DNA of 39,596 bases, from assembly GCA_027859235.1 (NCBI GenBank), contig JAQIBE010000211.1, forward strand, positions 1 through 39,596, given 5' to 3'. This document shows, piece by piece, positions 31,479 to 38,912 of the stretch (its first letter is position 1; each line of letters starts with the position of its first letter). Both the position numbers and the translations under genes were made by a program. This DNA is from Desulfobulbaceae bacterium. GTDB lineage: Bacteria > Desulfobacterota > Desulfobulbia > Desulfobulbales > SURF-16. The notes below the pieces were generated by a model, which was given only the letters and a program-made list of their open reading frames with translations, searched no databases and was not told where the DNA came from.

Positions 31479-31609
31479 CCTAGGGGCCGTTAAGAATGTT
31501 GATCAGGTAAGCGTAGACTCCAGGTAAGCGCAGACTCCGTTGTAGCAATTTCCTTATACCCCCTCAGGCAGCTATGGACATCTCCGTGGGCATGTTAATT
31601 TGTTACAAC
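31479..31609 (+). repeat. Dispersed intergenic repeat, copy A
   Basis: taggggccgttaagaatgttgatcaggtaagcg...cagactccgttgtagcaa...gcagctatggacatctcc...catgttaatttgttacaac; matches the reverse complement of 38801-38912. Confidence 0.9.
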
Positions 31610-31612
31610 TGC

Positions 31613-32353
31613 TTAACACCCCATGGTGTCGCTGGTGACAATGGCGTAGGCCGAGTGCTTATGGATGGATTCGAACGATTCTACGCCAACGGAAAACCAG
31701 GTGATGCTGGGGTGTGCGCTGGCTAACCCGGCAACCTTACGCACCGCATCTTCAACAAACATGGGGTTTTCGTAGGCCTTTTCAGTGACGTATTTTTCAT
31801 CGGGTCGTTTCAGCAGTGAAAAGACTTCGCAGGAGGCCCCTGACTCAACCATGCTGATCAGATCCTCAAGCCAGATAAAATCGGAAAATTTCACATCCAG
31901 GCGTATCTCTGCCCGTTGATTATGGGCGCCATACTTGCTGATTTCCTTGGAGCAGGGGCATAATGTGGTGGTGGGGACCCACATGGACATGATGAGGTCA
32001 TCGTCATTTTCAGAGGTTCCGGTGAAGGAGCAGGTGTACTCCATGAGGCCGGCGGTCTTGGTGACGGGTGCCTTTTTTTCAATAAAATAGGGAAAGGTCA
32101 TGGTGAGTTTTGCCGAATCCGCCATGAGCTCGGTTTTCAGCTCCTTGAGCAGGGCTGGAAATGCCGGGGGGGAGATGTCATCTCCATATTTGCCCAGCAA
32201 CCCCAGCAGGGTGGATACACAATCTTCGCAAAATTGTTTTGGCGTATTAACCTGGAGGGTAATGAGGGCCACCGTGTCCTGACGTGTCCCCCCCTTCTCC
32301 CTGATTTTCACAGGGAACCGGATGTCTTTTATTCCCACATTTTTTAGATCCAT
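31613..32353 (-). CDS. folE2: GTP cyclohydrolase IB (FolE2)
   Basis: GIKDIRFPVKI, TTLCPCSKEISKYGAHNQR, NPMFVEDAVRKVA. Confidence 0.95.
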   Translation of the reverse strand: MDLKNVGIKDIRFPVKIREKGGTRQDTVALITLQVNTPKQFCEDCVSTLLGLLGKYGDDISPPAFPALLKELKTELMADSAKLTMTFPYFIEKKAPVTKTAGLMEYTCSFTGTSENDDDLIMSMWVPTTTLCPCSKEISKYGAHNQRAEIRLDVKFSDFIWLEDLISMVESGASCEVFSLLKRPDEKYVTEKAYENPMFVEDAVRKVAGLASAHPSITWFSVGVESFESIHKHSAYAIVTSDTMGC

Positions 32354-32952: not shown

Positions 32953-33567
32953 ATGAAGAAAGCAGAAAGGGCATTAATCAGCCTCACCGATAAATCTGGC
33001 ATTGAAGGGTTTGCCCGTGAGCTTGAAGCATTGGGTATTGAGATATTGTCCACTGGTGGAACCGCAGCAAAAATGCGTGCTGAGGGCATTGCGGTGAAAG
33101 ATGTCTCTGAATTCACTGGTTTTCCTGAGATGCTCGACGGCCGTGTCAAGACCCTGCACCCAAAGGTGCATGGCGGTATTCTGGCTCAGAAGACCAATGC
33201 GGATCATGTGGCGCAGATGCAGGAGCATGGTCTGCAGGCAATCGATATTGTAGCGGTTAATCTCTATGCCTTTGAGAAGACGGTTGCTGATCCTGCCTGT
33301 ACACTGGCCAATGCCATTGAAAATATTGATATTGGCGGGCCCACCATGCTGCGCGCCGCTGCCAAGAATTATCAGGATGTGACCGTTATCGTTGATCCTG
33401 CGGATTACCCCATTGTGGTGAGTGAACTTAAGGCAACCGGTAATACAACCCTGAAGACCCGTTTCAAGTTGGCCCGCAAGGTGTTTGCCCTGACCTCCGC
33501 CTATGATACCGCCATTATCCAGTGGCTTGATCAGGTTGATGCAGATAAACATCCGGAGTTGGTGTAG
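32953..33567 (+). CDS. purH: Stand-alone IMP cyclohydrolase (PurH N-terminal MGS-like domain only)
   Basis: [71 protein letters not shown]; ends before any AICAR transformylase domain. Confidence 0.92.
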
Positions 33568-38700: not shown

Positions 38701-38798
38701 GTTTACGGTTTACGGTTGCCAGTTTACGGTTCAAGGTAAAATGCATCAGATAACGTCAACATCCACGAACTGTAAACGGTAAACTGGCAACTGGTAAG
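38701..38798. repeat. Inverted pair of heptad-periodic GTTTACG/GTTGCCA repeats
   Basis: Left arm GTTTACG GTTTACG GTTGCCA GTTTACG GTTCAAG (38701-38735); right arm reverse complement GTTGCCA GTTTACC GTTTACA GTTCGTG (38764-38791); 13-bp perfect inverted match gttgccagtttac / gtaaactggcaac. Confidence 0.85.
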
Positions 38799-38800
38799 CA

Positions 38801-38912
38801 GTTGGAAAAAATAACATGGCCAATGAGATGTCTATAGCTGCATAAGGGGCCGTAAAAAAATGATATAACGGAGTCTGCGCTTACCGGATAAACATTCTTA
38901 ACGGCCCCTAAC
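38801..38912 (-). repeat. Dispersed intergenic repeat, copy B (inverted relative to copy A)
   Basis: Reverse complement gttaggggccgttaagaatgtttatccggtaagcgcagactccgttatatca...gcagctatagacatctca...catgttattttttccaac aligns along its length to 31479-31609; 9-bp inverted repeat aggggccgt/acggcccct inside. Confidence 0.9.

Follow-up and report, generated by a model that had tools for sequence, protein, structure and literature searches.

A dispersed MITE-like repeat with a nested hairpin unit that recurs in unrelated repeats of one bacterial order

Main

Two noncoding segments of the window (the whole stretch of Desulfobulbaceae DNA analysed here, 39,596 nucleotides) are members of one dispersed family of elements, 116–165 bp in length, and the short unit nested within them sits in at least five unrelated host repeat families of the order. 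We consider that this arrangement is probably a two-level repeat, in which a MITE-like host element holds a nested REP-like guest hairpin and the guest would act as folded single-stranded DNA. The account builds on copy numbers, element ends, length steps of 17 bp, restriction to one order, compensatory base changes, presence in several hosts and an empty site, which we demonstrate here.

Copies A and B belong to a sharp-ended, multi-copy family

A first-pass annotation of the window had matched the noncoding segment next to nadD to the reverse complement of a second block, and this relationship was borne out with the exact bounds listed for copies A and B in Table 1. The neighbours of copy A were identified as nadD and folE2 by Pfam. 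Identity to the family consensus is 92% for copy A, over 135 bp, and 79% for copy B, whose smaller size is largely explained by a single 17-bp unit where A carries two. The annotation had also proposed counting copies in the genome and looking for empty sites. A search of the window's own genome found at least 40 copies among the matches listed (E values down to 1e-49), and 69 copies or pieces lie in 583 kb of that genome, in parts picked for the presence of copies. The family has at least 69 copies or pieces rather than two, far more than chance would give, and local duplication is refuted by this number. The element is noncoding, under 300 bp, multi-copy and sharp-ended, with the ends (T)TAGGGG...CTGCTTA in an alignment of 30 own-genome copies, and TTA or TA stands at both ends. 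In a genome of the same genus (G001), nadD and folE2 are separated by 19–20 bp without the element, an empty site that is too diverged for a base-level reading of target duplication. The host element had no match on plasmids or phages.

Of the two identities that had been suggested, a MITE-like element or a mobile noncoding RNA, the first is upheld by the many copies, the sharp ends, the fixed TTA at both ends, the hairpin ends and terminal inverted repeats (TIRs) of a sibling family and the same-genus empty site. The second is not supported: a search with Rfam covariance models gave no match, the RNA fold of the host consensus showed no gain over shuffles (z about 0) and the orientation relative to the upstream gene was mixed (22 same, 16 opposite). 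The blocks that had been listed as shared are real, but the most conserved of them, ggtaagcgcagactccg, had been missed as a separate hairpin module found across the order. The remark that nadD is not followed by rsfS here was fair but is unrelated to the repeat; because nadD is directly followed by folE2 in G001 without the repeat, rsfS was not displaced by it.

Two further features lie near the copies. Adjoining copy B, at window positions 38715–38791, is an inverted repeat with 17-nt arms (GTTGCCAGTTTACGGTT and AACGGTAAACTGGCAAC) set 43 nt apart, probably a different dispersed hairpin repeat. A purH-like frame (32953–33567) encodes an MGS domain and only 64 residues of the AICARFT domain; it has the same length in G001 and may be a real short form.

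Table 1 Features of copies A and B and of the sibling family
Feature	Coordinates or loci	Strand	Description
Copy A, host element	31481..31615	+	135 bp, two units, between nadD (+) and folE2 (-); ends as in 59 full-length copies
Hairpin 1 left arm, copy A	31481..31496	+	TAGGGGCCGTTAAGAA; covarying arm pairs between own and sibling families, DNA fold
Nested array unit 1, copy A	31506..31522	+	GGTAAGCGTAGACTCC-A; exact match, own-genome pattern search
Nested array unit 2, copy A	31523..31539	+	GGTAAGCGCAGACTCC-G; own-genome pattern search
Hairpin 1 right arm, copy A	31550..31566	+	TTCCTTATACCCCCTCA; the array is in the loop between the arms; covariation, DNA fold
Hairpin 2 left arm, copy A	31568..31571	+	GCAG; GCAG/CTGC in own family, GCCG/CGGC in siblings
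Hairpin 2 right arm and right end, copy A	31606..31615	+	CAACTGCTTA; terminal TTA is the folE2 stop on the other strand
Copy B, host element	38795..38910	-	116 bp, one unit; sharp ends
Sole unit of copy B	38870..38885	-	own-genome pattern search
TACCCCTCAAGGGGGTACTGAAAAGAG module in siblings	L040, L258, L260, L262, L269, L278, L279

The host target is strand-specific and often a stop codon

Among the 57 copies having both ends, a T precedes the TA at the left end in 47, whereas the mirror-image A follows the TA at the right end in just 20. The sibling family shows the left T in 32 of 32 copies, a figure that owes part to the choice of search pattern, and the right A in 8 of 32. Because the left T is not mirrored by a right A, the target is strand-specific. 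A TTA target read on one strand speaks more for single-strand transposition than for a symmetrical TA target, and the TA at both ends fits either. The strand of the elements relative to GC skew (38:20, P 0.025) showed a weak bias in windows that are not independent.

In 15 of about 43 full copies, a terminal TTA or TTAG also serves a neighbouring gene as its stop codon: nine copies end exactly at the stop of a convergent gene and six start on that of the upstream gene. An open frame of at least 100 codons stops at the right-end TTA in 9 of 24 testable copies, compared with 3% of background TTAs.

A sibling family shares the two-hairpin plan

Relatives carry a sibling family of 105–107 bp with inverted-repeat ends, TTAGGAGCCGTTACGAAATAACATGGCCA...TGGCCATGTTATTTTTTTACAACGGCTTA. 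Its TIRs span about 28 bp, 14 of which pair perfectly; they are clear in this family and degraded in the own family, in which the left inner half differs. From one family to the other, the arms of hairpins 1 and 2 change together (G-C with A-T, A-T with C-G), and the paired cells total 781 (746 at most in shuffles) and 397 (375 at most), although much of this covariation is one change between the own and sibling families. The DNA fold was significant in both (z -3.2 for the own family and -6.2 for the sibling). No long copy that could be an autonomous element was seen among 30 sibling loci.

Some siblings have one to three tandem copies of a 26–27-bp hairpin, TACCCCTCAAGGGGGTACTGAAAAGAG, between the two hairpins, with total lengths near 106, 132, 159 and 185 bp, indicating that host elements take up small hairpins repeatedly. 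The nearest empty form is the unit-free sibling, which reads GGCCA-TTTATATTGATTTC where the own family reads GACCA-units-TTATAGCAATTTC; judged from this comparison, the units apparently entered as a clean insertion after an A.

A minimal sibling form of 51 bp (position 1501 of L270, L281 and L263) is a near-perfect palindrome and equals the 106-bp form once the stretch separating two TGGCCA repeats is taken out. Separately, a hairpin-like block near GAAGCATACTGGTGCTATTCGAGAAG recurs within the GTAACTATTCAG host family (L047, L140, L141 and L148) and is apparently another shared module.

The guest unit is a hairpin shared across the order

The nested unit is 17 nt long, GGTAAGC-GNA-GACTCC-G, with position 9 free, and the loop of hairpin 1 in the own family contains GGTAAGCGNAGACTCC plus one linker base. 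Across 59 full copies, zero, one, two, three and four units occur in 1, 28, 27, 2 and 1 copies, respectively, and host lengths step by 17 bp (near 119, 136, 151 and 165 bp). Of 245 genomes of the order (apparently Desulfobulbales), 117 contain the single unit, with up to 149 exact copies in each and none for a backward-pattern control. It was absent from about 380 genomes of other orders (396 were sampled from the phylum), and, among GTDB species, all matches of the double unit were Desulfobulbales-type records. Within a genus the counts are uneven (mostly 0 in genus g19, yet 107 in its member G163), as for a selfish repeat. Clustering of 275 unit contexts gave five clusters of at least 15 members (69, 51, 46, 16 and 15) and many small ones, by single linkage, which may over-merge. 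The base before the unit is an A in most contexts and a G follows. Filled sites only were found when we looked for a clean before-and-after pair for unit insertion.

The unit is also present in putative viral contigs in IMG/VR (L284–L300), mostly with A as the free base and in many cases next to short tandem repeats that resemble AATCGAATAACGAATAACCGA; these contigs likewise offered filled sites only.

Compensatory changes, both at the G2-C15/A2-T15 pair and in covarying apical stems, show that the unit is a hairpin. Positions 2 and 15 form G-C in 380 units and A-T in 35, with 13 mixed A-C and 5 G-T; both had changed together in 37 units, compared with 6 expected, in a set of which part came from a query that allowed either C or T at position 15. 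Among the first 30 matches listed for that query, each from a different genome, 24 had A2 with T15. In many units the free base is replaced by 5–12 nt; such forms occur in 44 of 45 unit-bearing genomes, with up to 232 copies per genome and about 0 in the control, and the spacing between the half-sites varies accordingly between 1, 7, 8, 9 and 11 nt. These apical inserts are stems with pairs that change together (CC/GG, CT/AG, GC/GC, AC/GT and GT/AC), exceeding permuted partners at P 0.0005 for 8-nt inserts and in all permutations for those of 9 and 11 nt (0/2000). A plain tandem satellite or operator reading of the unit was dropped after these apex variants appeared.

GNA triloops close 31 of 36 unique cores with 11-nt inserts and 22 of 36 with 9-nt inserts, and the bare unit, C-GNA-G, carries the same loop. 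GNA loops form unusually stable DNA mini-hairpins (PMC4686876), and their presence here points to single-stranded DNA. Nearest-neighbour models left the bare 16-mer unfolded as RNA or DNA; the hairpin therefore rests on covariation, by which the C7-G11 pair is weakly tested, and the core needs non-canonical pairs or a protein.

Units are not associated with Y1 transposases

Among 59 Y1 loci, nine had any unit-like match and none showed the REPtron layout. Neither a GTAG nor a CGTC tag was present at the foot of the unit, where the flanks are the A before and the G after. Units flanking Y1 genes were in no excess over the density-based prediction, no Y1 transposase was detected in the unit-rich genomes G173 and G078, and a search up to 1.5 kb from 30 Y1 genes gave no host ends. 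Mobilisation by a RAYT/REPtron was rejected, as the units showed no association with RAYT in these loci. The Y1 gene nearest to a unit (L067, in G007) looks like a complete IS200 element, on the far side of which the unit occupies a hairpin repeat of its own. Two class assignments were also rejected: the unit is a short, high-copy, extragenic palindrome but lacks the tag and the RAYT association of GTAG- or CGTC-class REPs, and, in the 30 Y1 loci, no transposase gene lay between host hairpins, as would be needed to place the host with IS200/IS605 derivatives.

Discussion

In the reading that we consider probable, the host would be a non-autonomous MITE-like element with hairpin ends and a fixed TTA at both ends, whose target reads TTA on one strand, so that surviving copies often lie at stop codons. 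The guest would be a REP-like hairpin, A-(GGTAAGC-apex-GACTCC)-G, with an apex formed by a GNA triloop or by a longer stem with a GNA or 4-nt loop. Its array would fill the loop of the host hairpin in whole 17-bp steps, and at least five unrelated host families would each have captured it on separate occasions. The guest may act as folded single-stranded DNA: hosts would insert at TTA, guests would enter palindrome loops exposed at replication, and tandem arrays would grow by slippage. Both may have been spread by a single-strand transposase of the HUH type that is extinct or acts in trans. We think it unlikely that the 17-nt unit is itself mobile, in which case it would be among the smallest mobile units known, a single-stranded DNA mini-hairpin that enters the loops of palindromic repeats, after an A, and builds arrays through an unrecognised Desulfobulbales enzyme.

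The hosts might instead be ordinary DDE-type MITEs (IS630-like, with a TA target) that contain an old satellite, with units that ride on hosts and gene conversion and never move by themselves. Such MITEs are common, the TA at both ends would fit a TA duplication and the sibling TIRs, with their 14 perfectly paired bp, fit as well; we nevertheless regard this reading as rather unlikely, given a left T that lacks its mirror at the right, a unit found in at least five unrelated host clusters and no related transposase seen in a limited search.

Two readings would give the sequences a function. Extreme conservation around one free central base, together with the dyad symmetry of G2-C15/A2-T15, would suit a double-stranded operator of an order-specific DNA-binding protein, with hosts selected as regulatory modules, but half-sites spaced at 1 to 11 nt by inserts that form covarying stems, and counts as uneven as those within g19, make this very improbable. 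That unit and host act as structured RNA in 3' untranslated regions, in mRNA stability or termination, would accord with the many copies just past stop codons and with a role that REPs are thought to have (PMC3733652). We consider it most improbable: the host RNA folds no better than shuffles and matches nothing in Rfam, the 16-mer stays unfolded in the RNA model, the loops are triloops and not tetraloops of the GNRA or UUCG type, as is usual for RNA, and orientation to upstream genes is mixed.

Returning to the two-level repeat, its apex variants offer a natural series for testing the recognition and copying of single-stranded hairpins, and the unit provides a marker for typing Desulfobulbales genomes and metagenomes. 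We found neither the unit sequence in print nor a paper on a tandem palindrome under a Desulfobulb- name in the literature searched.

Comparison with known systems

In its working the guest resembles REP hairpins that lie within palindromes, and its layout is that of BOX arrays. With REPs and REPINs it shares a short mismatched hairpin with an apex of variable length, found intergenically in tens to hundreds of copies as singles, tandems and inverted pairs, and, like CGTC REPs, it comes without a dedicated transposase. In A. variabilis and H. neapolitanus, REPs have been reported to lie within longer palindromes (PMC3733652). Unlike REPs and REPINs with RAYT (GTAG and CGTC classes), the unit has no tag and flanks no RAYT in the 59 Y1 loci, and one unit is common to several unrelated host repeats across a whole order.

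The host resembles IS630-type MITEs (RUP, NEMIS/Correia and Nezha) in being noncoding, 100–150 bp long and present in many copies with TA at both ends and with inverted-repeat ends that are clear in the sibling family, but its preference for TTA is one-sided, it forms two hairpins in place of clean TIRs and it contains a nested array. Its subterminal hairpins, strand-specific short left target and apparent lack of a variable duplication recall the ends of IS200/IS605 elements (HUH transposase), from which it differs in that no autonomous Y1-bearing copy with host ends was found. Cyanobacterial small dispersed repeats are likewise very small mobile repeats nested in other repeats; their sequence and lineage differ from those of the unit.

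Streptococcal BOX elements (boxA-boxB(n)-boxC) also hold a variable tandem array of a short module, the boxB of about 45 bp, between flanking modules, a likeness in layout alone. Whereas boxB belongs to BOX, the unit, a hairpin of 17–27 nt, occurs in at least five host clusters. Two different flank pairs enclose the same boxB in S. suis (PMC3049150). Earlier descriptions tie REPs, as tagged palindromes, to one transposase and treat BOX arrays as parts of one element; by contrast, the unit is a tiny hairpin with a conserved core and a freely changing apex, present in hundreds of copies in unrelated repeats across an order without a visible enzyme.
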